Origin: Pararhizobium sp. IMCC21322
GTDB taxonomy: Bacteria; Pseudomonadota; Alphaproteobacteria; Rhizobiales; GCA-2746425
Length of the DNA stretch: 64,000 nt
Direction of reading: 5' to 3'
Assembly (NCBI RefSeq): GCF_030758295.1
Contig: NZ_CP132335.1
Span: 1,588,412 to 1,652,411 of the forward strand
Below the pieces are notes generated by a model. It did no database searches. It saw nothing but the letters and a program-made list of their open reading frames with translations, and had not been told where the DNA came from. The first letter of the stretch is position 1; each line of letters starts with the position of its first letter. Positions 43,625 through 57,116 of this stretch are shown piece by piece. The position numbers and the translations under genes are program-made.

Positions 43625-44554
43625 CTATCTAACAGGCAAAATGATGGTTGATGTGTTTTGCTGCATGAGTTCGCGGAACGGGCGCATGCCGATTGTCTGG
43701 ATTTCAAATTCATCCAGCCAGCCAGCGATCAGGCCATTACGCAGAGCCTCCGTCTCCTCCACCCGCCAATGTGCACGCGGCGGAACGATCGTTTCAATAT
43801 CACCGGTGACGTTGGGGTGAAGGGCAAAAAATGTGATGCCAGGGTCCAACGCTTCGAGGATCTTTCGATAAGCAGCTGCACCTTCGCCTTTTGGAGCGCC
43901 AGGCGTCATGGCGAAATTGTCCACAAGCGGTTCCTGATTTTGTGCGCTTTGTGCGACAGCTGCGTCCCATTCTGCTTCACCGCCATGGGACTCCAGCTTG
44001 AGTACATCCCGATAGGTTTTGCCGTCGCGCGGAAGCAGCACTGGAAGATCGTATTCCCGGCCCAGACGAAGTGTGGTTTCTAAAAGTGGGGCGCATAGAG
44101 CTGCGCCCATATGCGTATCCAGATGAGTGACGTCAATCCCGGCACCGAGCGCGCGCTCTATTTGCGCCCGCATCTCGTCTTTGGCGGCGGCGGGATCAAT
44201 CCGTTTTGCAAGTGCTGCAACGTTGCTGTGAAAATAACCCGCATCGTCCACCAGGCCTGAATCAGAACTGGCGCGGGTCAGCGGCCCCCAACGATAACTC
44301 GTCCATTCGCTGGTCAATGTCAGGTGGACGCCCAGATCAAGTGTGTCGTCGCCTGCAGCTTCGCTGGCAATCTCAGGAAACCATGGGCACGGCACCATAA
44401 CCGAACCGCAGTTCAGCGCCTCAGAACGCGACAGTTCGAGAAACGCGACATTGGCACCGTGACACATTCCCACATCGTCAGCATGCAGCAGGACGGCAGG
44501 ATGATCGGGGTTCAGTCCCAGAGCCTGCATGGTCTCTGATCGGTTCATCTGCAC
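43625..44554 (-). CDS. YdjC/ChbG-family carbohydrate deacetylase
   Basis: Metal-dependent deacetylase of the ChbG/YdjC family, 309 aa, that removes an acetyl group from an N-acetylated sugar. The metal and catalytic motif LHADDVGMCHGAN (residues 23-35, Asp-Asp) and the second site THLDTHMGA near 143-151 (two His) are intact; HPNVTGD near 248 is a third family element. Start GTG 44554 has AAGGGG close before it; ATG 44548 is an alternative. No signal peptide, so it acts in the cytoplasm on imported sugar. It lies downstream in the minus-strand importer operon. Confidence 0.85.
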   Translation of the reverse strand: MQMNRSETMQALGLNPDHPAVLLHADDVGMCHGANVAFLELSRSEALNCGSVMVPCPWFPEIASEAAGDDTLDLGVHLTLTSEWTSYRWGPLTRASSDSGLVDDAGYFHSNVAALAKRIDPAAAKDEMRAQIERALGAGIDVTHLDTHMGAALCAPLLETTLRLGREYDLPVLLPRDGKTYRDVLKLESHGGEAEWDAAVAQSAQNQEPLVDNFAMTPGAPKGEGAAAYRKILEALDPGITFFALHPNVTGDIETIVPPRAHWRVEETEALRNGLIAGWLDEFEIQTIGMRPFRELMQQNTSTIILPVR

Positions 44555-44593: not shown

Positions 44594-45637
44594 TTACTTT
44601 GTCTCGGTGGTGTGCTGTTGCCCCGGTGTGGAGCGCAGACGGGCGACAGTTTCCGGGTGCGCCGATTGCAGTCGTGCGGGGGGCAGACCGGAAAGCAAAA
44701 GGCCAGCATCATCCGCCACCATCTCTCCGATCCTTAGAAAAGCTTCTTTGATGCCGCCAGCGCGGTGCGCTGAAAGGATCATATGATCATGCCTACGCAC
44801 TGGATCATCAGGAGACACGGGCTCTTGCGGGAAAACATCGGTTGCCGCCCGGAAGCGCCCCTCACGAGAGGCTTCCAGAAAGGCATCCCAATCCACGATG
44901 GGGGCACGCGACATGAGCAGGAAAGCGGCTCCGCCAGGTATCAGTGCAAGTTGTTCTGCGCCGATCATTCCGTAGTTTTCTTCGGTCACCCCGGCGAGGA
45001 CAAATGTCACTTTTGATTTCGATAAGACACCCTCAAGTGAATCAGGAACCAGACCGTGTTCACGCAATGCGCCTGGTGGCACCCAAGGATCGAACACCCG
45101 GATCGTTGGCCTGAAAGGTTGCAAAAGAGGTAGCAGCGAACGGCCCAAATGGCCGAAGCCAACAAAGCCCATATCCGCTCCGGTCAGGAGAAACGATCCG
45201 GCATTATCTGCCTTCCCATAACCCTCTCGTCCGGCGCGAAAAGCCCGGTCAGCGCGGGTAATACCGCGTGCGGCGTCGATGGCCATGCCCAGCGCCATTT
45301 CCGCTACGGGCAGAGAGAAGGCCGGACCTATTCCCAACACGCGAATTCCGCGCGCAAAGGCAATCTTGTAGTCGACATTGGGATAGAAATTGCCTTCAAC
45401 GTTAATGATCGCCCGAAGTGGTTCGGCGCGTTCTAGTCGTTCGGCGGGCAGGTCTGTCTGCCCTATGATCAGGGAAGCTTGGGGCAAATATTCGTCAACC
45501 AAGGCGTCGTCCATACGCCCGGCACCTTCATGTGAGATCACACGACCCAGAGAATTCAGCCGTTTCCAATCTTCGGCACTGAAAATTAGTTCGCGGCTTC
45601 GCGGCGAGGGATCGAAGATGATGACAGGCTGACTCAA
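44594..45637 (-). CDS. D-isomer-specific 2-hydroxyacid dehydrogenase (island)
   Basis: NAD(P)-dependent dehydrogenase, 347 aa. The NAD motif is VGFGHLGRSLLPLL near residue 158; catalytic residues are Arg in LMSRAPIVDW, Glu in FPQEPVSPDDP and His in SAHRAGG. It is only distantly like the one at 34038. The start is a TTG at 45637, three bases after the previous stop, with GGAG about 9 bases upstream. In this island it may reduce or oxidise a sugar-acid-derived 2-oxo acid. Confidence 0.85.
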   Translation of the reverse strand: MSQPVIIFDPSPRSRELIFSAEDWKRLNSLGRVISHEGAGRMDDALVDEYLPQASLIIGQTDLPAERLERAEPLRAIINVEGNFYPNVDYKIAFARGIRVLGIGPAFSLPVAEMALGMAIDAARGITRADRAFRAGREGYGKADNAGSFLLTGADMGFVGFGHLGRSLLPLLQPFRPTIRVFDPWVPPGALREHGLVPDSLEGVLSKSKVTFVLAGVTEENYGMIGAEQLALIPGGAAFLLMSRAPIVDWDAFLEASREGRFRAATDVFPQEPVSPDDPVRRHDHMILSAHRAGGIKEAFLRIGEMVADDAGLLLSGLPPARLQSAHPETVARLRSTPGQQHTTETK

Positions 45638-45639
45638 AA

Positions 45640-46017
45640 TTATTGCTCCGCGACCAGTTTCAAGGGTTCTTTCAAGACGAGTTCCTGTCCTTTGAAATAG
45701 AGCCTGTATTCACGAGATGACGTTTCACCAACCCCCGGCTTTTCTGCAGCCAGATAGAGTCTATAGACGTCCTGGTTTTCGAATTTGAACTGTCCGTCTT
45801 CATCGGTTTCCGCTGTTCCCTTTGGGCGCGTGACGAGCAGCGTTCGTTCAGACAGGCTCACAATTGCTCCGGTTACCGGAGCCCCGTCGGGACCTATGAC
45901 CCGACCAGCGATGAGCCCGGTATTATTGGCTTCAACGTAGATATTCCAGAACGCGATCAGCACCGCAAGCATGCCGAAGGTGATCGAAAAACGATTAAAA
46001 AGCCAGCGGCGTACCAT
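45640..46017 (-). CDS. Membrane-anchored protein with carboxypeptidase-regulatory-like domain
   Basis: Small protein of 125 aa from the ATG at 46017, five bases after the permease stop. It has a basic N-terminus, one hydrophobic helix at about residues 11-28, and then a periplasmic beta-sandwich of CarboxypepD_reg/transthyretin type from about 33 to 122 (GLIAGRVIGPDGAPVTGAIVSL and DEDGQFKFENQDVYRLYL). Such domains bind peptides or sugars or act as spacers. Its place directly behind the two permease genes suggests a partner of the ABC transporter. An upstream in-frame reading runs inside the permease and is not used. Confidence 0.75.
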   Translation of the reverse strand: MVRRWLFNRFSITFGMLAVLIAFWNIYVEANNTGLIAGRVIGPDGAPVTGAIVSLSERTLLVTRPKGTAETDEDGQFKFENQDVYRLYLAAEKPGVGETSSREYRLYFKGQELVLKEPLKLVAEQ

Positions 46018-46022
46018 AGCGC

Positions 46023-46835
46023 TTACCCCTTCGTCGCGCCGGAGGTGAGGCCAGTAATGAATTCCTTTTGCGCCAGAAGGAAGATCAGCAGTCCGGGCAC
46101 AAGGACCATTACGCAGAAAGCATAGAGCGCGCCGGTCGTGTCCTCTACCACACTCAGGAATCGTGAAAGCCCGAGTGGTAGCGTTTGCATCTCGGCATCG
46201 CGCACAATCACCAGCGGCCACAGGAAGCTGTTCCATGACCAGATAAAGGACAGAATGACATTGGTAGCGATTGCAGGTTTTGTGAGCGGCATGATGATGC
46301 GGAAGACGATCATCCATTCCGGCACACCATCAATCCGGGCAGCATCAATCAGGCTTTTCGGTATGGCCTCAAAGGCCGCCTTGAAGATGAAGATGCAGAC
46401 GATAGTCGACATCAGCGGCAGCGCCATGCCGATGTATGAGTTCAGGATGCCCAATTTGGCGGTAATCAGATAAGCGGGAATAATGGTCACTTGAAAGGGG
46501 ATCATCATACAGCTCAAAAACAGCAGCACAGTTAGTTTTTTACCCGGAAACTCGCGGGTTAACGCATAGCCGGCAGTCGCGTTGAGAACAACATTTGCAA
46601 TAACAACCAGCACCGAGACGACGACCGAATTGAAGAGATAGCGCACGAAAGGGATGGCGTACCACACATCAACATAGAAAAACGGCTGCGGGTTCTCCGG
46701 CAACAGAGCGGGCGGATAGGCAAAAATGTTTTCGCCCGTCAGGCTAGTCTTCAACACCCAATAGAAGGGGATGAGCATGATGGTCGAAACGATCATCAGC
46801 ATGATGTGGACGGATAAGGTCGATCTTTTGCGCAT
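46023..46835 (-). CDS. Carbohydrate ABC transporter permease, MalG-like (island)
   Basis: Inner-membrane permease, 270 aa, six hydrophobic segments in the CUT1 layout. The EAA loop is visible as IPKSLIDAARIDGVPEWMIVF near residue 159 onward, and the MalG-like C-terminus AQKEFITGLTSGATKG is present. AGGAGG lies before the start. It follows the MalF-like gene by seven bases. Confidence 0.92.
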   Translation of the reverse strand: MRKRSTLSVHIMLMIVSTIMLIPFYWVLKTSLTGENIFAYPPALLPENPQPFFYVDVWYAIPFVRYLFNSVVVSVLVVIANVVLNATAGYALTREFPGKKLTVLLFLSCMMIPFQVTIIPAYLITAKLGILNSYIGMALPLMSTIVCIFIFKAAFEAIPKSLIDAARIDGVPEWMIVFRIIMPLTKPAIATNVILSFIWSWNSFLWPLVIVRDAEMQTLPLGLSRFLSVVEDTTGALYAFCVMVLVPGLLIFLLAQKEFITGLTSGATKG

Positions 46836-46842
46836 GACTGCT

Positions 46843-47889
46843 TTAGCCTCCTGTCTTCACTGCACCCGCATCACCGCCTGCCAATCGGTTACCGATAAGA
46901 GCGAGCGCGAGGAAGAGAAGAAAATTCACCACAGTCATCGCTGCTGCATAGTCAAACTGCGATAACTTGAAGGCGGATGAGTAGATGTATGTGATGAGAA
47001 GATCAGTTGATCGTCCCGGCCCGCCGCCGGTCATGACGAAGATGAGATCGAAGGCGGTGAATGAGTTGATAATGCCGACCACGAAACACAGGAATAGAGA
47101 CGGTCGCAGAAGCGGCATGGTAATGCGCCGGAATTGCTGCCAGCGGCTTGCTCCGTCAATTGAGGCAGCCTCATAGAGATTAGGCGGGATGCCCTGCAGA
47201 CCCGTGAGCAGAATGATCATGTAGAAGCCAATCACTTGCCAGATTGACGCGACAATGACCGCAGGCAAGGCGTAGTCGAAACTCTCAAGAAACGGGATTC
47301 CCTGGTCTATGACGCCCAGCGAGAGGAGAATGTAGTTGATCAATCCGACCTTCTCGTTGAACAGCCATTGCCAGATGACACCCACGGCAACTGTCATGAC
47401 GGGGTAGGAGATGAAGACGATTGTACGGTAGATGTTACGTCCCCGAACCGGGCTGTCCACCAGGATCGCGATGCCCAGGGCCAGGAAAATACCAATTGGC
47501 GCAGAGGCCATGAACAGAACGGTATTCCAGAGGACCTCCCGGAAGGCCTCGTCGTAGATCAGCATTTCCTCATAGTGGTACAGACCTGCGAATTCTGCCG
47601 GTTTGTAGGGCGACCAGTGCTGGAACGATAGAACACCGTTCCAGATAAGCGGAATGATCCGGTAGAGCGCAAAAATGAAAAGTGATGGTGCCAGAAAGAC
47701 CCATACAAGGGTAAGTTCCCGGGTCCGTTTGCGCCCGGCGAAGGCGCGAAGCCCTCGCCGGACGTTAGAGTGTCCGGATGCAGATACGCCATCTACTTTG
47801 GTGGTATCATTGGACCCGGTGGCGGTGCTGGGAGACACCGCCATCTTTTTCGGCACTGAACCGACAGCCATTCGATTATCTGGTGTCAT
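46843..47889 (-). CDS. Carbohydrate ABC transporter permease, MalF-like (island)
   Basis: Inner-membrane permease, 348 aa. The first about 55 residues are polar (Ser/Thr/Lys-rich cytoplasmic tail, longer than usual for CUT1 permeases); the first helix is at about 59-80. The EAA loop is near residues 230-250 (IPPNLYEAASIDGASRWQQF). It forms the channel with the MalG-like subunit. The binding-protein gene lies 20 bases upstream. Confidence 0.92.
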   Translation of the reverse strand: MTPDNRMAVGSVPKKMAVSPSTATGSNDTTKVDGVSASGHSNVRRGLRAFAGRKRTRELTLVWVFLAPSLFIFALYRIIPLIWNGVLSFQHWSPYKPAEFAGLYHYEEMLIYDEAFREVLWNTVLFMASAPIGIFLALGIAILVDSPVRGRNIYRTIVFISYPVMTVAVGVIWQWLFNEKVGLINYILLSLGVIDQGIPFLESFDYALPAVIVASIWQVIGFYMIILLTGLQGIPPNLYEAASIDGASRWQQFRRITMPLLRPSLFLCFVVGIINSFTAFDLIFVMTGGGPGRSTDLLITYIYSSAFKLSQFDYAAAMTVVNFLLFLALALIGNRLAGGDAGAVKTGG

Positions 47890-47909: not shown

Positions 47910-49157
47910 CTAGCGGCGTCGCAGGACGCGGTTAACCTTGCGTTCTGCATCAGCCAACGCTTCGGCAGCGCTTTTTTCACCAAGCAGGGCGGCCTGAAGC
48001 TCAGGATAGAAGACGTCCTTGACGGCCGCATCATTCGCCAAAGGCCAGTTTCCGGTCAGCTTGTCGAGGTTCTGCAACTGTGTTTCCAGCACTGGAACCA
48101 CGGCAGGAACTTTCTCGGCGAACAACTTCATCAATTCTGCGTTTTCAATGCTGTCACCGGTCAAGTTGTTGGTTGCTGAACCCATCGCATAGGCACCTTT
48201 GCCACTGGTAGCGATCTTCATGAAATCCCATGCTTGCTCAGGATATTTTGACCCTTTGGAGAGCACCAGCGAGTGGGAGTTAGGGGTCGACATACCGCCT
48301 GGCATGTTGATTGCCTGAACTGTGTTTTCGTCAACCCAGTCCGACTTGCCCTTGAACCACAGGAAGGCAGGTGCGTGGGCATGAAGCATGCCTACAGTTC
48401 CGGCAGCAAAGGCACTGTTCGGCTCAACCCAGCGGCCCGTCCAGCTGAGCTTGTTAATAGCCCCACTTTTCGTTGCTTCCGCCAGACGTTCAACCAGCGC
48501 AACAGCTTCAGGTGTATTGAATGCCGCCTCCGTCAGGTCTTCATTTACGAACTCAATACCGTTCATCGCGAAAAGTGGCCAGTAGAGCCAATCGAAATTG
48601 AGGGTCATGAAGCCGGTTTTTTCGCCACCCGACATTTTCTCTGCCGCAGCCATCAAAGACTCAAAATCGCTGGGAGCTTCGGTGACGCCCGCTTCGTCCA
48701 TCATCTTCTTGTTGAGGAAAAGCAGCGTCTTGGAAATGTAGAGCGGAACGCCGTAGTTCCTGCCTTCGTATTTCCAGCTGTTGATGACCTCGGGGATCAT
48801 CCGTTCGGTGTAGTCCGTATCGCGCTCCAATAAAGGCGTCAGGTCAACAAGGCCACCTTGGGAAGCGTATTCCAGCCAAAGACCGCCTTGAATGTCAACA
48901 ATGTCAGGTGGTGTGCCAGCCACGACCTGTGTCTGATAGAACGTGGGGATATCCGTCCCCTTCATATCGATCCGTTCGACTTCAAAATCAGGGTGCAGTT
49001 TTTTGAACTCATCGACCCAAAGCTGAAAGCCCTCTTGGTAGTAAGAGATATTCCAGGTAACGACAGTAATTTTCTTTTGCTCCTGCGCCACGGCCGGACC
49101 AAACAGGGCAAGCCCCAGCATGGCGGCGCCCGCGAGAGCCTTTGATAGAATATGCAT
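47910..49157 (-). CDS. Carbohydrate ABC transporter substrate-binding protein (island)
   Basis: Periplasmic receptor of the SBP_bac_1 family (CUT1), 415 aa. Signal peptide at residues 1-24 (ending GPAVAQ). Mature motifs include VDEFKKLHPDFEVE, QVVAGTPPDIVDIQGG and the late FAAGTVGMLHAHAPAF and PNSHSLVLSKGSKYPEQAWDFMK (abridged), all usual. AAGGAGGAG precedes the ATG. It is the first gene of the importer part of the minus-strand operon. Family members bind di- and oligosaccharides or sugar derivatives. Confidence 0.92.
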   Translation of the reverse strand: MHILSKALAGAAMLGLALFGPAVAQEQKKITVVTWNISYYQEGFQLWVDEFKKLHPDFEVERIDMKGTDIPTFYQTQVVAGTPPDIVDIQGGLWLEYASQGGLVDLTPLLERDTDYTERMIPEVINSWKYEGRNYGVPLYISKTLLFLNKKMMDEAGVTEAPSDFESLMAAAEKMSGGEKTGFMTLNFDWLYWPLFAMNGIEFVNEDLTEAAFNTPEAVALVERLAEATKSGAINKLSWTGRWVEPNSAFAAGTVGMLHAHAPAFLWFKGKSDWVDENTVQAINMPGGMSTPNSHSLVLSKGSKYPEQAWDFMKIATSGKGAYAMGSATNNLTGDSIENAELMKLFAEKVPAVVPVLETQLQNLDKLTGNWPLANDAAVKDVFYPELQAALLGEKSAAEALADAERKVNRVLRRR

Positions 49158-49246: not shown

Positions 49247-50281
49247 TCAGTCGAAGTTCAGCATGACCTCCTTACCTTCCGACAGAGAGCGTTCTGCTTC
49301 CAGGCAAACAAGTATGCGCTTGCGCGCATCCTCACCTGATACAATTGGACGTCCCTCGCGAAAGGCCTGCACGGAAAGCCGCAACTGCTCGTCAAGTTCA
49401 AACAACTCACCCGAAGCGCCAAGCTCAAGATTTTCCACAGGCTCGTCACCCGATTTGAGTTTTAGTTCGAATGAAGGCTGGCGCGTTCGATCCTGCGCAC
49501 CCGACCACCAGGTCCGCAAAGAACCCTTTGTTCCAACGATTTCCATGACGTGATGATGTTCGAACCCTGAAAGGGACTGGGTCAGCACGGCATATTGTCC
49601 GTTTGGCCAGCGCATGATTGTGGTCAGATTATCAGCCATGGCCGCGCCGCCATTTGTGGCATCCCGATCACGGGCGTTTCCCGTCGCCATCAAAGAGACG
49701 GGATCTCCCAATTCTTCGAAATACCACATAATGCAATCATAGAAGTGGACCGGTTCTTCCAAAATCCATGAACCAACCTTGTCCGCATCGTAGCGCCATC
49801 CTCCAGACCCTCCGCGATAAGGAAATCTGAAAAGGCTCATGTGAGCATAAAGGGGTGTACCGATTGCGCCGTCATCCACGATCTTGCGAATGCGTCCCCA
49901 CTGAGTAGACAGGCGTAATTCATGACCGATTGTGAGCACTTTGCCTGATCGTTTCGCCGCGTCAATCAGACGGTCGCAAGAAGCGACCGATAGGGCCATC
50001 GGCTTTTCAAGCAGAACGTGTTTGCCGGCATTCAGTGCAGCAACGCCGATTTCTTCGTGCAGATGGTTGGGCACGACGACATCGATTGCCTCGATTGCAG
50101 GATCGTTAATAAGTGCATCGGCATTGAGATGGATTTTGACGTCTGGAAATCGCTCACGTGCTTTCGCCGCTGTCGCTTCGCTTGAACAGGCAATGGCCGT
50201 TAGCTCTGCATCGGGTGCCTTGGCAATTGCCTCGGCGTGATGCTGTCCCCATAGCCCATAACCAACAAGACCGAACTTCAC
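49247..50281 (-). CDS. Gfo/Idh/MocA-family NAD(P)-dependent oxidoreductase 1 (island)
   Basis: Sugar dehydrogenase-type protein, 344 aa from the GTG at 50281, chosen because GAGGAAAG stands 8 bases upstream and the Rossmann strand (VKFGLVGYGLWGQHHAEAI) begins at once; a TTG at 50311 would add ten residues. The catalytic EKPMA motif is near residue 92 and the second-domain ILEEPVHFYDCIMW stretch carries the expected His/Asp pair. It leads the minus-strand operon and is divergent from the ATPase gene, with a 215-bp shared control region. Confidence 0.88.
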   Translation of the reverse strand: MKFGLVGYGLWGQHHAEAIAKAPDAELTAIACSSEATAAKARERFPDVKIHLNADALINDPAIEAIDVVVPNHLHEEIGVAALNAGKHVLLEKPMALSVASCDRLIDAAKRSGKVLTIGHELRLSTQWGRIRKIVDDGAIGTPLYAHMSLFRFPYRGGSGGWRYDADKVGSWILEEPVHFYDCIMWYFEELGDPVSLMATGNARDRDATNGGAAMADNLTTIMRWPNGQYAVLTQSLSGFEHHHVMEIVGTKGSLRTWWSGAQDRTRQPSFELKLKSGDEPVENLELGASGELFELDEQLRLSVQAFREGRPIVSGEDARKRILVCLEAERSLSEGKEVMLNFD

Positions 50282-50392
50282 TTTGCTTTCCTCAACTTGA
50301 TCCGAAGCCAATTCCGCACAAAAGAATCCTCAGAAATTTGAGCGTCTTGGCTGTCAAAAAAACCATACTTGATATTAATAGACCATATGTGG

Positions 50393-50405: not shown

Positions 50406-50496
50406 GCGGTCGTGGAAATTCCGCTGCATTGATGCCGCCGTGGTTCTTTACCCCACAGGTTGGTAGACCAGTTGATTGAAGGGGAGGGGAAGTTCC

Positions 50497-51612
50497 ATGG
50501 CCACAATAGAGCTTAACAAGGTGATCAAGCGATACGGGGACGTCCAGGTCATCCATGGGGTTGATCTCTCAATCGCCGACAAGGAATTTGTGGTTTTGGT
50601 TGGGCCTTCTGGCTGCGGAAAGTCAACTTTGTTGCGCATGATCGCTGGTCTGGAAGACATATCAGACGGGACCATCTCAATCGGTGGCAGTGTCGTGAAC
50701 GAAAAGGCGCCAAAGGAGCGTGACATCGCCATGGTGTTCCAGGACTACGCGCTCTACCCGCACCTGGATGTTTATCGAAACATGTCTTTCGCTCTTGAAG
50801 TGCGCCGCATGAAGGCAACCGAGATTCGCCGCCGGGTTGAGCGTGCCGCAAAAATTCTCAATCTTGAAGAGCTGTTTGATCGTAAGCCGGCACAATTGTC
50901 CGGGGGACAACGCCAGCGTGTAGCCATGGGCCGCGCTATGGTTCGCGAGCCTGTAGCATTCCTGTTTGATGAGCCGCTCTCGAATTTGGACGCAAAGCTG
51001 CGCGGCGAAATGCGCACCGAAATCAGGAAGCTGCATCAGGAGGTGCAGAAGACCATTGTCTATGTGACCCACGATCAGGTGGAAGCCATGACACTTGCTG
51101 AGCGCATTGTGGTGATGCGCAGCGGGTATGTGGAACAGATTGGTACGCCCAATGAAGTTTATAACCACCCCGCGACGCTGTTTGTTGGTGGTTTTATCGG
51201 AGCGCCTCGGATGAACCAGCTACCTTGTGTTTATGATCCCAAAAATGGCGGCAAACTCTCAATTGCAGGCGGTCCGGACATCTCTGTTCCGACCCACCTC
51301 ACTGAGGCCACTTCGGGACTTGAGGGGCGTCGGCTGGTGTTGGGAATACGTCCCGAGGCCTTCATTTTGGCCAAGGCTGACAGCACTGCGGACGCGTTTA
51401 CGGCGAAGATAGATTTCCTCGAACCGCTCGGTTCCGACACACTTGTATTCTTGCACGTTGGGGATGTTGAAGTGATCGCGCGCCTTCCACCGCTTGAACA
51501 TCTTAGGGAAGGCAACGAAATTACGCTCGCTCTGGATTCACCTAAACTGCATCTCTTCGACGCAGACACCGAACAGGCCATCACGAAGTCTTCACCAGTT
51601 GCAGCGACATGA
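50497..51612 (+). CDS. Carbohydrate ABC transporter ATP-binding protein, MalK/UgpC-like (island)
   Basis: ATPase for the island importer, 371 aa from the ATG at 50497 (GGGGAGGGG upstream). Walker A GPSGCGKST near 36-44, signature LSGGQRQRVAMGR, Walker B FLFDEPLSNLDAKLR and switch His (THDQ) are intact; the MalK-type TOBE domain follows from about 240 (LGIRPEAFIL). It is encoded on the opposite strand from the permeases, and its stop overlaps the NagB-like gene by four bases. Confidence 0.92.
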   Translation: MATIELNKVIKRYGDVQVIHGVDLSIADKEFVVLVGPSGCGKSTLLRMIAGLEDISDGTISIGGSVVNEKAPKERDIAMVFQDYALYPHLDVYRNMSFALEVRRMKATEIRRRVERAAKILNLEELFDRKPAQLSGGQRQRVAMGRAMVREPVAFLFDEPLSNLDAKLRGEMRTEIRKLHQEVQKTIVYVTHDQVEAMTLAERIVVMRSGYVEQIGTPNEVYNHPATLFVGGFIGAPRMNQLPCVYDPKNGGKLSIAGGPDISVPTHLTEATSGLEGRRLVLGIRPEAFILAKADSTADAFTAKIDFLEPLGSDTLVFLHVGDVEVIARLPPLEHLREGNEITLALDSPKLHLFDADTEQAITKSSPVAAT

Positions 51613-52475
51613 ACCAGGAAACGAAAGCGGATGTTTTGCCGCTTCTTATCCCCAAGGATATGGTTGGCGTTGGCTCGCCGATCCCGCTGGAGACAGTACC
51701 TGATCCAGCCGCTCTGACCGAGCGTTTCGCCAAAGATCTTATGTCCGAATATCTGGCAGCTAAAGCGTCGGGCAGGGACAAAATTGTCTTTATCGTTCCG
51801 GTTGGACCCGTGGGACAGTTCGAGCAATGGGCAGACAGGTGCAACGCTGAAAAGATCAGTTTACGCGATCTCGTCGTTATCAATATGGATGAGTATTTGA
51901 AACCCGACGGAAGCGGCTTCATTTCCATTGATGATCCTCTTAGTTTCCGGCGTCACATGGACCAAAAATTCTACAATCGCCTTGACCCGGAGCTGGCCCC
52001 GCCATTGGAAGCGCGCCATTTCCCCAATCCCTTACACCCCGAACAGACCGGCGAACTGATCGCCACACATGGTGGTGTTGATGCGTGTTTTGGGGGCGTT
52101 GGTATCACCGGCCATGTGGCCTTCAATGACCCGCCGGAACCTGGAAAGCCGATGGATCTGGACGAATTTGCCGATCTGCCCACACGTTGTGTTGAGCTGT
52201 CTCGGGAAACACGCCTGATCAATTCAGTCACAGTCTGTCGAGGTAATCTGTCGCGCATACCGCGCAAAGCTATCACGGTTGGTATGCGTGAAATTCTCAA
52301 CTCTCGTCATGTGCGGATCTACATGAACAGACAATGGCAGTGTGCGGTTGTGCGCCAGTTGCTACACGGTCCGGTTACGCCGGACGTGCCTGCTTCTCTC
52401 CTTCAGCGGCATAAGGATGTTCGGGTTGTTGCGGTCGATTTGGTCAGGGAAGTACCAGAGCCGACCCTGGCGTGA
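51609..52475 (+). CDS. NagB-like (glucosamine-6-phosphate isomerase fold) protein with altered active site
   Basis: Protein of 288 aa in the glucosamine-6-phosphate deaminase/6-phosphogluconolactonase superfamily. It keeps NMDEYL with Asp94 (NagB Asp72) and GHVAF with His169 (NagB His143), but the ring-opening residue Asp141 is replaced by Thr167 (GGVGITGH), Glu148 by Asp174, and the phosphate loop LPTGGTP by VPVGPVG (63-69). The phosphate site and acid-base set thus differ from true deaminases. It may act on a non-phosphorylated or differently substituted amino sugar. The start overlaps the ATPase stop (ATGA). Confidence 0.8.
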   Translation: MNQETKADVLPLLIPKDMVGVGSPIPLETVPDPAALTERFAKDLMSEYLAAKASGRDKIVFIVPVGPVGQFEQWADRCNAEKISLRDLVVINMDEYLKPDGSGFISIDDPLSFRRHMDQKFYNRLDPELAPPLEARHFPNPLHPEQTGELIATHGGVDACFGGVGITGHVAFNDPPEPGKPMDLDEFADLPTRCVELSRETRLINSVTVCRGNLSRIPRKAITVGMREILNSRHVRIYMNRQWQCAVVRQLLHGPVTPDVPASLLQRHKDVRVVAVDLVREVPEPTLA

Positions 52476-52559
52476 GATCCGAACGGGCTTGGACAAACGC
52501 CCGTATTTGAAAATACAATGCTATATATGGTAGAGGCAGAATAATTATTGAAATCTGAA

Positions 52560-53396
52560 ATGGCACGTTTTATGGATTCATCTCAACCAGTACTGCGCAC
52601 GCTCAAGGTACTGCAACAATTCACGCAGCCAAGTCATGATGGAATGACTTTGACGGAAATCGCACGGGCATGCGCGATTGCACCCGCTACACTTGGCCGG
52701 ATTGTTAAAACCCTTGAGGCGGAGGGTTATATCGAGCAGGTTGAGCGAGGCCGCTACCGGGCAAATTTCGAAATTCGTAAAGTTCTGGACATGCCGAGCC
52801 ATTATCTTTCACGTTTGGCCCGCGTTCTCGATCATCTCGTCGATGAGACACGGCAGTCATCTGAAGTGATACTGCGAAGCCATGGTGATCTCGTATGGCA
52901 CGCCAAGCGCGAGCATCCCGATCTGGCTATCATCATTCGTGCGCGGCCAGGTTTTCGGCGCGGGCTTCACGAATTGGATGCACTTTCACGCCTGTTTCTG
53001 TCCGCACTTGGTTTGGACGAGGTGCGCGCGCGCTTTAACCTGGATGGGTTTGTGGCGACCGGAGGTGAAGATCAGCCTATTTCAGCGGCAAAGGTTTGCG
53101 CTTTGATCGAAGCAACGGATCCAAACGGCATTGCTTACGATGTCCAGGGCAATGAACACGGCGTGCGGCGTTTCTGCCGCCTCGTTTACGGTGTCGACGG
53201 GGTCCCCCTGCACGCGATTTCCATCGCAGAAGCGGCGCGTATGAATATTGATATTCAGTTGCACATTGCCCGCAACACGCAACTGCTGGAGCGATATGGT
53301 GACGTCCTTGCCGAAGCTGCACGAGCAACGCTTGCTGATCCCGTATCCTCTTCTTCCCAATCCCAAGATGATCTTCAACAATTATGGAGAGCATGA
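52560..53396 (+). CDS. IclR-family transcriptional regulator (island)
   Basis: DNA-binding regulator, about 278 aa. Winged helix at about residues 10-70 (LTEIARACAIAPATLGRIVKTLE), then an IclR effector domain from about 85 to 255. The start is uncertain: ATG 52560, ATG 52572 or TTG 52548. It is the only regulator in the island and follows the NagB-like gene, so it most likely controls both island operons in response to a pathway intermediate. The 3' end overlaps the next gene or nearly so. Confidence 0.87.
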   Translation: MARFMDSSQPVLRTLKVLQQFTQPSHDGMTLTEIARACAIAPATLGRIVKTLEAEGYIEQVERGRYRANFEIRKVLDMPSHYLSRLARVLDHLVDETRQSSEVILRSHGDLVWHAKREHPDLAIIIRARPGFRRGLHELDALSRLFLSALGLDEVRARFNLDGFVATGGEDQPISAAKVCALIEATDPNGIAYDVQGNEHGVRRFCRLVYGVDGVPLHAISIAEAARMNIDIQLHIARNTQLLERYGDVLAEAARATLADPVSSSSQSQDDLQQLWRA

Positions 53397-54351
53397 ATTG
53401 GCGTGGGGTTTGTTAGACAGCTGTGAAGCTGGTTTTCGCTACGGCTTCCTGACCAATCAACTGGTCGATGTTGGCATAAGCGATGCTGATGAGATGTGTG
53501 ATTTCTGGAGTGAGGGCGGTTTCGATACACTTGAGATCGGCCCCACGTTTGATTTATCTGATGAGGCATTGCGTGGTTTTGAAAGCCGGGGGGTGAAGAT
53601 CTCCGATCTCATCTACTGCCGCAATACATTGGCTGCCAATACTTCCGACCGTGAAACGGTTCTCGAAAAACTGCGTCAGCGTATCGAATGGGCTGACCGG
53701 TTTGGCATCCCCATGGTCACGACGTCTGCTGGTTTCCCCGGTCGTTCGGACAACAAGCAGACTTACGACCGGTATGAAGCCATTCGGCCTTTGCCTGCTG
53801 CTGCCATTGACGAATGGGTCCGTGTCTTTACGCCGCTGGTCGAATTAGCAGAATCCAAAGGCGTCAAACTTGCCTTCGAAAACTGCCCATTGATGCAAAA
53901 CTGGGCCATCGCGCCGGATTTGTGGGCGTCGATGTTTGAACGGATCGACTCAAAACAACTCGGGCTGGTTTATGATCCTTCCCATCTGCTGTGGCAGATG
54001 ATCGACCCATATGAACCGCTTGAAGAGTTCGCTGACCGAATTTTTGCAATCCACGCAAAAGACACTCAAATCGATCATGAGCGGCTGGCCCGATGCGGTA
54101 TCCTGTCGGATTTCAGCTGGTGGAGCTATCGTATTCCAGGTCGAGGTCAGCTCGATTGGTCCCGTTTCATGGAAAAGCTGCTCGATATCGGTTTCGACGG
54201 CCCCATCACCATTGAACACGAGGACGCGGATTTTTCAGGTTCTGCCAAGGACGTCAAGGCGGGCATTCTGCAAGGACTGGCTCATCTCAGACATGCGGAA
54301 AAACAAGCGCGAAGCCAACGCGCAAAACTGAGCCAGCTGCAAGAGAGTTGA
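53368..54351 (+). CDS. Sugar phosphate isomerase/epimerase (xylose-isomerase-like TIM barrel)
   Basis: TIM-barrel protein of the AP_endonuc_2 family, about 327 aa from ATG 53368, which overlaps the IclR gene by 29 bases; a TTG at 53398, one base after the IclR stop and with GGAGAG upstream, would give 317 aa and fits equally well. Metal-site features are LAFENCPL (Glu), LVYDPSHLLWQ (Asp, His), IFAIHAKDTQ (His) and TIEHEDADF (Glu), all as in 2-keto-myo-inositol dehydratase or epimerase relatives. Family members isomerise, epimerise or dehydrate sugars and inositols, often beside Gfo/Idh dehydrogenases, as here. Confidence 0.87.
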   Translation: MIFNNYGEHELAWGLLDSCEAGFRYGFLTNQLVDVGISDADEMCDFWSEGGFDTLEIGPTFDLSDEALRGFESRGVKISDLIYCRNTLAANTSDRETVLEKLRQRIEWADRFGIPMVTTSAGFPGRSDNKQTYDRYEAIRPLPAAAIDEWVRVFTPLVELAESKGVKLAFENCPLMQNWAIAPDLWASMFERIDSKQLGLVYDPSHLLWQMIDPYEPLEEFADRIFAIHAKDTQIDHERLARCGILSDFSWWSYRIPGRGQLDWSRFMEKLLDIGFDGPITIEHEDADFSGSAKDVKAGILQGLAHLRHAEKQARSQRAKLSQLQES

Positions 54352-54414
54352 TGTCACCGAACAGTCAGTTCGATTGACGGACACGTCTTGCGGCTCATTG
54401 ATGGAGGAAGCCTG

Positions 54415-55596
54415 ATGGGTGCCGACGGTCGAAAATTGAAGATGGGTATGGTCGGTGGCGGGGCAGGCGCATTCATTGGCCATGTTCACCGCCGGGCAGC
54501 CGAACTGGATGGCGAAATCGAGCTCGTGGCGGGGGCGTTTTCCTCTCAACCCGAGAAGGCACAAAAATCCGCACAGGAACTGGGGTTGGACCCGGAGCGC
54601 AGTTATCTGGACTGGTCCCAGATGATGATTTCGGAAGGGACAAGACCGGTCGACGACAGGCTGGATTTGGTTGCCATAGTAACGCCCAATCATCTTCATT
54701 TTCCGGTCGCGAAGGCGGCAATCGAAGCTGGCTTCCATGTCATGTGTGAAAAACCGATGGTGCGCACAATCGAGGAGGCGGAGACGCTTTGCAGCTTGCT
54801 GGAGGAACGGCAGGTGTTTTTCGGGCTATGCCATACCTACACGGGCTATCCCATGATCAGGCAGGCACGTGCCCTTGTGCAAAACGGAAGGCTGGGACGC
54901 ATCAACCGTGTCGTTGTCAACTATACGCACGGCAACATGGTTGGCGTTGCGGCAAATGAAATGCGCCGGCGTTGGCGCGCCGATCCTGAAAAATCCGGTA
55001 TATCCAATGCGATGGGCGATATTGGAACCCATTGTCATAACTTGATTAGCTTTATTACCAACCTGTCCCAATCTGAGATCTGTGCCGATCTGCATGCCGC
55101 GCAACCAGGTGAATTGGACAATGAAGGGACTGTTCTCGTTAATTTCGAGGGCGGCGCGAAAGGGTTGATCCACGTCTCGCAACTATGTGTTGGCGACGTG
55201 AATAATTTGTGGATCAAGGTCCACGGTGATGAAGGCTCGATAGAGTGGAAGCAGACAGAGCCAGAGACCCTCTGGTTTCGTCAGGCTGGAAAACCAGCCA
55301 GCATGATAAACCGCGGTTTTGGCGATCTATCCGAGGAAGCCAGTCGGGCAAGCCGCCTTCCGCCCGGCCATCCCGAAGGGTTCATAGAGGCATTCGCTAC
55401 GCTCTACGCCGATTTCGCAAAAGCGATACGGTCTGACGATCGCAGCATGTGTCTGGTGCCGGACCAGAAAGATGGCATGCGCGGGATTCGCTTCGTGCAT
55501 GATTGTGTTGCAGCAAGCCAAAGCCCAACGAAATGGCACGCCATCGCAATTGAGCAGGCGGTCACGTTACCAAAAGAGAATGGAAAGCAGACATGA
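54415..55596 (+). CDS. Gfo/Idh/MocA-family oxidoreductase 2 (island)
   Basis: NAD(P)-dependent sugar dehydrogenase-type protein, 393 aa from ATG 54415 (GGAGGAAG upstream). The Rossmann motif is GMVGGGAGAFIGHVHRRAA near residues 11-30, and the catalytic Lys lies in CEKPMV near 113. The GxxxGAFIGxxHR form and the length resemble the branch that includes 3-dehydro-sugar enzymes and IolW/IolX-like proteins. It overlaps the sulfatase gene by four bases, suggesting that their products are needed together. Confidence 0.87.
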   Translation: MGADGRKLKMGMVGGGAGAFIGHVHRRAAELDGEIELVAGAFSSQPEKAQKSAQELGLDPERSYLDWSQMMISEGTRPVDDRLDLVAIVTPNHLHFPVAKAAIEAGFHVMCEKPMVRTIEEAETLCSLLEERQVFFGLCHTYTGYPMIRQARALVQNGRLGRINRVVVNYTHGNMVGVAANEMRRRWRADPEKSGISNAMGDIGTHCHNLISFITNLSQSEICADLHAAQPGELDNEGTVLVNFEGGAKGLIHVSQLCVGDVNNLWIKVHGDEGSIEWKQTEPETLWFRQAGKPASMINRGFGDLSEEASRASRLPPGHPEGFIEAFATLYADFAKAIRSDDRSMCLVPDQKDGMRGIRFVHDCVAASQSPTKWHAIAIEQAVTLPKENGKQT

Positions 55597-57116
55597 CGAA
55601 GCGACCAAACATTCTATTCATCATGTCAGATGACCACGCAGCCAATGCCATCAGTTGCTACGGGTCTGGTCTTAACCACACACCAAACCTTGACCGCATC
55701 GCAACACAAGGAATGCGGCTGGACCATTGCTATGTGACCAACTCGATCTGCACACCAAGCCGCGCCTCAATTCTCACGGGCACCTATAATCACGTCAATG
55801 GGGTGACAACCCTTGAAACGCCGATCAATACGAATGCACCTAATGTGGCGAAGCACCTGCAAGCAGGCGGTTACCAGACTGCAATTGTCGGCAAGTGGCA
55901 TCTGGGCGAGGGTGCGGCGCACCAGCCTTCCGGTTTCGACTTCTGGTCCGTGCTGCCGGGTCAAGGAGAATATTTTGATCCCTACATGATTGAAATGGGA
56001 GAAGAGGTCGAGCTTGATGGCTACGCCACAGATCTCATCACCGACAAGTGCCTCGACTGGATGAAAGCGCGCGACAGGGATCGCCCATTCTTCATGATGT
56101 GCCATCACAAAGCGCCACATCGAAGCTGGGAGCCTCATTCTCGACATAAGGACTTGTATCAGGACGAAATAGCTCTGCCGGAAACATTCAACGACGATTA
56201 CAAAAACCGGGCGAAGGCCGCCGCCGCCGCAACAATGCGTATTCGCGAGGATTTGTCCTATCAGGATCTGGGTTTGGTACAGCCCGAGGGCGGCAATGAA
56301 GTGGGACGGCGTTCGGCACCCGGTTCAACGAACCGGCTCATTCCTTTTTCAGAAGATGTCACGGGGTTGCGTCTGATCGACAAGGATACAGGGGAGACCT
56401 TCACCTTTTCCAGTCAGGACGAACTCGCTCATTTCAAGTATCAGCGCTATTTAAGGCGCTACCTTCAAACCATTGCGTCTATTGACGAGAATGTGGGCCG
56501 ACTACTGGATTATCTGGATGAAGACGGCATAGCCGAGGATACAATCGTCATTTACACCTCTGACCAGGGCTTTTTCCTTGGTGAGCATGGCTGGTTCGAC
56601 AAACGTTTCATGTACGAAGAATCTTTCCAGATGCCATTTTTGGTTCGTTATCCTCGGGCCATTCAGGCTGGATCAGACGCTTACAACATTGCCTGTAACG
56701 TTGACTTCGCACCGACATTTCTGGATTTCGCTGGTCTCAAGGTTCCAAACTATATGCAGGGACGCAGCCTACGACCGATCCTCACCGACAATGTGCCCGA
56801 TGATTGGCCAGATACGGCGTATCATCGATACTGGATGCATCGCGATGCTGAACATAATGCCTATGCGCATTACGGCGTACGCGACCAGCGTTACAAGCTG
56901 ATCTATTGGTACAATGAGGGGTTTGATCTGCCGGGAACGAACCAGGGCGGTCAGGACAGGGAGTGGGAGCTCTTTGATTGCGAGCGTGATCCTCTGGAAC
57001 TCTTCAATCTACACGCTGACCCAGAATATTCGGACGTCGTGCGCGCTATGACCGTCAAGCTTGATGCCAAGATGGAGGAAATTGGTGACGTGCCCATGCA
57101 TGGTGTACTGGAATGA
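55593..57116 (+). CDS. Sulfatase, formylglycine (Cys) type, cytoplasmic
   Basis: Type I sulfatase (alkaline phosphatase superfamily), 507 aa. The maturation motif CTPSRASILTG is at residues 53-63, so Cys53 would be turned into formylglycine by an FGE-type enzyme encoded elsewhere. Metal ligands Asp13-Asp14 (SDDHA), GKWHLG at 100-105 and YTSDQGFFLGEHG further on are intact. There is no signal peptide, so desulfation would take place inside the cell after uptake, which is less common than periplasmic sulfatases. The ATGA overlap ties it to the Gfo/Idh gene. The substrate is likely a sulfated sugar. Confidence 0.9.
   Translation: MTKRPNILFIMSDDHAANAISCYGSGLNHTPNLDRIATQGMRLDHCYVTNSICTPSRASILTGTYNHVNGVTTLETPINTNAPNVAKHLQAGGYQTAIVGKWHLGEGAAHQPSGFDFWSVLPGQGEYFDPYMIEMGEEVELDGYATDLITDKCLDWMKARDRDRPFFMMCHHKAPHRSWEPHSRHKDLYQDEIALPETFNDDYKNRAKAAAAATMRIREDLSYQDLGLVQPEGGNEVGRRSAPGSTNRLIPFSEDVTGLRLIDKDTGETFTFSSQDELAHFKYQRYLRRYLQTIASIDENVGRLLDYLDEDGIAEDTIVIYTSDQGFFLGEHGWFDKRFMYEESFQMPFLVRYPRAIQAGSDAYNIACNVDFAPTFLDFAGLKVPNYMQGRSLRPILTDNVPDDWPDTAYHRYWMHRDAEHNAYAHYGVRDQRYKLIYWYNEGFDLPGTNQGGQDREWELFDCERDPLELFNLHADPEYSDVVRAMTVKLDAKMEEIGDVPMHGVLE

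Follow-up and report, generated by a model that had tools for sequence, protein, structure and literature searches.

What reaction is catalysed by a NagB-like protein of Pararhizobium sp. IMCC21322 that departs from glucosamine-6-phosphate (GlcN6P) deaminases both at a catalytic Asp and in the phosphate loop? Its gene lies in the window, by which we mean the whole stretch of 64,000 nucleotides analysed here and to which all coordinates refer unless a locus is named. The gene and its upstream neighbour are as follows.

51609-52475, plus strand: NagB-like deaminase/isomerase of the remodelled clade (288 aa; ATG at 51609, stop at 52475)
50476-51612, plus strand: UgpC/MalK-type ABC ATPase, a conserved neighbour whose stop overlaps the NagB-like start

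The two genes share an ATGA overlap, which makes their co-translation very likely. Misannotation or a frameshift was ruled out by this coupling, the clean open reading frame and a conserved clade of relatives; the same features are kept in independent relatives, so the variant is neither chance nor a sequencing error. A Pfam search with the protein gave no match at E 0.001, and none to PF01182. The best NCBIfam match was NagB (TIGR00502; 2.6e-28, 99.1 bits), far below the curated equivalog cut-off of 236.9 bits. AgaI galactosamine-6-phosphate isomerase (PRK09762) belongs to the same superfamily, and its NCBIfam equivalog scored 55.2 bits, far under a cut-off of 271; no 6-phosphogluconolactonase model was among the NCBIfam matches at E 0.001. 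An AlphaFold2 model (alignment A4; pLDDT 96.0, pTM 0.93) has the NagB fold, with Z of about 30 to the NagB structures 5hj5, 2bkv and 1dea. Its top structural matches were all GlcN6P deaminases (Z 24-30), followed by 6-phosphogluconolactonases (Z 20-24). The comparison with NagB, AgaI and lactonase families that an earlier note on this DNA had proposed, made from its letters, therefore gave a NagB fold with NagB models matching best. 6-Phosphogluconolactonases share the fold (Z ~20-24), whereas the protein has the NagB-type motifs MDEY and HVAFNDP; these motifs and the profile matches rule out a lactonase identity.

We scanned GTDB genomes with a profile as guide. Of the 206 stretches that matched, 200 encode relatives, and the best 80 loci were kept. 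Clade counts refer to 87 members from many phyla, the window protein included. In a maximum-likelihood tree (quick search, LG+C20) these 87 rows split from 8 canonical-type NagBs with 100% SH-aLRT support, and the window protein grouped with mainly alphaproteobacterial members (99% support). The tree places the gene in a large branch, as yet uncharacterised, of the glucosamine-6-phosphate deaminases; a literature search found no characterised or assayed member of the clade. The gene is rare in its class, being found in 3 of 384 other sampled genomes at E 1e-40, and thus looks accessory. The genome also encodes a separate, canonical NagB.

We compared the catalytic core with solved NagBs and with an E. 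coli NagB sequence that we take to be correct, its numbering placing D72, D141, H143, E148, R172 and K208 as expected. Two stretches carry this core.

51885-51896, plus strand: MDEY (residues 93-96), with Asp94 aligned to NagB Asp72 and invariant in the clade
52107-52130, plus strand: T167-G-H169-V-A-F-N-D174, with Thr for Asp141, His143 kept and Asp for Glu148

The alignment agrees with the equivalences proposed in the earlier note. Asp94 and His169 correspond to NagB Asp72 and His143 and are invariant in all 87 members, and Asp141 and Glu148 are replaced by Thr167 and Asp174. Position 148 is always acidic across the clade (Glu in 60, Asp in 27), and the change to Asp is, on its face, conservative. 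Position 141 is Thr in 64 members, His in 20 and Ser in 3. NagB itself shares with the protein the fold, MDEY with Asp72, GxGxxGHxAFN with His143 and the acid at 148; relative to it, the window protein has about 25 extra N-terminal residues. The weight that the earlier note put on Asp141 could be taken to mean that deaminase chemistry is lost with it, and here we disagree. The monomeric NagB of B. subtilis (2bkv), a characterised enzyme and the best single-sequence PDB match of our protein, reads GIGRNGH and so has Asn at 141, and the clade itself retains the set of Asp72, His143 and the acid. Of the 8 canonical-type NagBs compared, 7 likewise have Asn here, among them that of the same genome. 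These observations rule out the missing Asp141 as a mark of lost deaminase chemistry and make it ordinary, unlike the missing phosphate site. As judged from the alignment, the earlier note gave Asp141 too much weight, and the argument from the phosphate site is the strong one.

Three places in the protein make up that argument.

51795-51815, plus strand: VPVGPVG (residues 63-69), the remodelled phosphate loop, 2 residues shorter than NagB PTGGTP
52227-52229, plus strand: Val207, aligned at the place of NagB Arg172
52335-52340, plus strand: Trp243 (invariant in the clade) and Gln244, aligned at the place of NagB Lys208

The replacement of LPTGGTP by VPVGPVG, already seen in the earlier note, aligns as VPVG--PVG with a two-residue deletion. 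Beyond this, two further phosphate ligands are lost, with Arg172 replaced by Val207 and Lys208 by Gln244. Both residues are phosphate ligands in E. coli NagB. NagB G43-T44 is deleted in 87/87 members (V-G plus a two-residue gap in place of TGG[ST]), Arg172 is lost in 87/87, and Lys208 is replaced by His, Gln or Ala in 86/87. The canonical-type NagBs differ in keeping the TGG[ST] loop, Arg172 and Lys208, with a single outlier (L008) in which Lys208 is kept but the loop and Arg172 are missing too; the phosphate loop is therefore not inviolable elsewhere in the superfamily. By this comparison the clade stands apart in having lost the loop together with Arg172 and Lys208, and in having T, H or S at 141. 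2bkv likewise lacks Asp141 and differs from the clade in being, by its title, a working GlcN6P deaminase. New invariants of the clade include Cys160, Gly212 and Trp243, and Trp243, Arg193 and Gln/His244 could be new residues binding an anionic group.

The genes around the NagB-like gene bear on what this altered pocket might accept.

43625-44554, minus strand: YdjC/ChbG-family carbohydrate deacetylase, a conserved partner
44594-45637, minus strand: D-2-hydroxyacid dehydrogenase family, in the same cluster in several relatives
45640-46317, minus strand: CarboxypepD_reg-like small protein, true start probably inside the ORF
46023-46835, minus strand: sugar ABC permease B
46843-47889, minus strand: sugar ABC permease A
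47910-49157, minus strand: sugar ABC transporter substrate-binding protein
49247-50311, minus strand: Gfo/Idh/MocA oxidoreductase, a conserved neighbour in near relatives
52548-53396, plus strand: IclR-family regulator, in the island but outside the conserved core
53392-54351, plus strand: IolE-like TIM-barrel isomerase/dehydratase, start estimated (ORF listed from 53248)
54388-55596, plus strand: second Gfo/Idh/MocA oxidoreductase
55593-57116, plus strand: S1 sulfatase, closest to N-acetylglucosamine-6-sulfatase 5g2v

The island ORFs tested (43.6-57.1 kb) yielded no sugar kinase, in line with the earlier note. The putative S1 sulfatase has N-acetylglucosamine-6-sulfatase 5g2v as its best solved relative (E 1.2e-133) and carries the formylglycine CxPSR motif as ICTPSR. 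A signal peptide is not evident in this protein, so that desulfation of an imported sugar is probably cytoplasmic. Its gene lies outside the conserved core of the clade loci. Taken together, the sulfatase homologue and the lack of a kinase would favour a nutrient containing 6-sulfated GlcNAc.

We counted neighbours in other loci by tblastn with reference proteins, because an ORF-based map had picked up antisense shadow ORFs at a number of GC-rich loci. The near relatives (Rhizobiaceae, Afifella, Rhodospirillales and Desulfofustis) have in common the UgpC ATPase, the NagB-like gene, Gfo/Idh, the substrate-binding protein and two permeases, the transporter being a CUT1-type sugar ABC system. The D-2-hydroxyacid dehydrogenase and the YdjC deacetylase join this set in part of the loci. 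YdjC is present in 9/18 alphaproteobacterial-type loci and lies directly downstream of the NagB-like gene in L036, L042, L045 and L046; in L042 and L045 TRAP transporters stand nearby in place of the ABC set. The CarboxypepD_reg-like protein also follows the permeases, at the same place, in Haloarcula (L013 21652-22119, L014 882-1355). A DUF3604/CehA-type metallohydrolase accompanies an ABC transporter and the NagB-like gene in IMCC20636 (L017 7406-8938) and occurs in the Haloarcula clusters (L013 16616-18205, L014 4859-6454); none was seen in the window island.

Both Haloarcula plasmids encode a pair of divergent members, a T-type and an H-type protein, adjoining a Khk-family kinase, a class I type aldolase, a GlpR regulator, an ABC transporter and Gfo/Idh. 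The kinases match Pfam Khk (E 2.7e-137 and 4.7e-139), and a characterised haloarchaeal Khk phosphorylates free fructose (PMC11519228). The ketohexokinase-family gene in both loci fits a free ketose as the product of the NagB-like enzyme. Related Khk-family genes in other haloarchaea stand beside aldolase, sugar isomerase/epimerase, sulfatase and IclR genes, with no NagB-like gene alongside. The kinase is thus not tied to the NagB-like enzyme alone, and the link is suggestive only.

The kept catalytic core and the lost parts of the phosphate pocket lead us to think that the protein probably deaminates an amino sugar without a 6-phosphate. On balance, we lean towards a cytoplasmic NagB-type deaminating ketol-isomerase, and we infer its substrate to be a deacetylated 2-amino sugar lacking that phosphate. 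A possible order of steps would begin with a (sulfated) N-acetylamino sugar or small glycan entering through the ABC transporter, the S1 sulfatase taking off the 6-sulfate and the YdjC deacetylase the N-acetyl group. His169, helped by Asp174, would then open the ring, Asp94 would shift the C2 proton to C1, and ammonia would be released to leave a free ketose for oxidoreductases or kinases to process. Linkage to a deacetylase in two lineages (YdjC in alphaproteobacterial-type loci, NagA in Firmicutes/Spirochaete loci) supports a non-phosphorylated amino-sugar substrate. The earlier suggestion of another, perhaps phosphate-free, substrate therefore stands on the remodelled pocket, the lack of an obvious kinase, and the deacetylase and haloarchaeal Khk neighbours; its argument from Asp141 does not. 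For 3-keto-glucosamine, which the note listed for assay, the near relatives do offer a conserved adjacent Gfo/Idh enzyme, but no feature links that enzyme to C3.

A rather unlikely, though serious, alternative is that the rebuilt pocket reads a 2-amino sugar bearing another acid group on or close to C6, such as a sulfate, a carboxylate as in amino-uronic acids, or a sulfonate. TRAP transporters mostly carry acids, and they occur in four alphaproteobacterial-type loci and in the Clostridiaceae locus L083. The NMT1-type ABC importers and TauE of Firmicutes loci and the GlcNAc-6-sulfatase homologue of the window point the same way, and neighbouring LarA and D-2-hydroxyacid dehydrogenase genes hint at products that are 2-hydroxy acids. 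Against this, the transporter of the near relatives is a sugar ABC system of CUT1 type, and a new, conserved Arg/Lys cluster in the pocket was not demonstrated.

The Firmicutes and Spirochaete loci raise the opposite difficulty. Here the NagB-like gene stands with LarA, TIM, NagA, PPi-PFK and a class II aldolase, along with an NMT1-type ABC importer and TauE. NagA was found in 25 of the 33 loci, many of which were ended early by contig ends, and it scores above the NCBIfam cut-off in the Firmicutes loci. NagA and PPi-PFK usually act on 6-phosphates. Their presence counts against the non-phosphorylated reading and leaves room for a phosphorylated substrate in the Firmicutes lineage. With PGI among the same neighbours, one might suppose that the clade remains a hexosamine-6-phosphate deaminase whose phosphate site is built differently. 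We consider this improbable in view of the loop deletion and loss of Arg172 in 87/87 members and of Lys208 in 86/87, the canonical NagB in the same cluster in L060, the canonical NagB of Pararhizobium sp. IMCC21322 itself, and the lack of a kinase among the window island ORFs tested.

An aldose-ketose isomerase or a C2-deprotonating lyase that releases no ammonia appears very unlikely. Such an enzyme would suit a Vibrio nigripulchritudo plasmid member, which lies among nucleoside salvage genes and not amino-sugar genes, but the deacetylase linkage in two lineages and the better match to NagB than to lactonase models speak against it. This distant member (L015 11821-12714), whose neighbours are nucleoside hydrolase, adenosine deaminase and ribokinase, probably has a different substrate. 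A non-catalytic NagB-fold sensor is scarcely credible, as the catalytic residues are invariant over several phyla and the protein has no DNA-binding part, even if the effector domains of DeoR/SorC regulators share the fold (Z ~11).

Returning to deamination without a 6-phosphate, the loci allow us to hypothesise a wider route. Known NagB routes phosphorylate the sugar first. In bacteria and haloarchaea, N-deacetylation would instead be followed by deamination of a free, 6-sulfated or acidic 2-amino sugar to a free ketose, in Firmicutes together with an orphan nickel-pincer LarA; we hold this broader proposal to be evenly balanced. The LarA neighbours match a subfamily of unknown substrate in which Asn replaces the second catalytic His and for which a 'glucosamine-6-phosphate isomerase' neighbour was seen (PMC12611868). 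Consistent with this, GNPYGGYSGG, with Asn where LarA has that His, occurs in 26/26 LarA sequences checked. LarA is a different enzyme, a neighbour of Firmicutes clade members and absent from the window, and its linkage to the NagB-like gene (L048-L090) makes the latter a likely pathway partner for the orphan nickel enzyme. Muramic acid, with lactate passing through LarA or the D-2-hydroxyacid dehydrogenase, was considered as a substrate, but no etherase gene was noticed among the neighbours. Further candidates for the Firmicutes clusters would be 6-deoxy and sulfo-sugars. If true, the proposal would give amino-sugar catabolism a second logic in several phyla, with a deamination core devoid of the phosphate site. 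It would also correct annotations as glucosamine-6-phosphate deaminase, 6-phosphogluconolactonase or hypothetical protein, and open a way into the function of the LarA subfamily that has just one catalytic histidine.

T/S-type and H-type paralogues lie side by side in archaea and in several bacterial phyla, at the following places.

L013, 10985-12810: paralogue pair
L014, 10916-12774: paralogue pair
L083, 9938-11639: paralogue pair
L102, 944-3607: paralogue pair
L103, 1748-3685: paralogue pair

This arrangement suggests either a hetero-complex or two successive steps.
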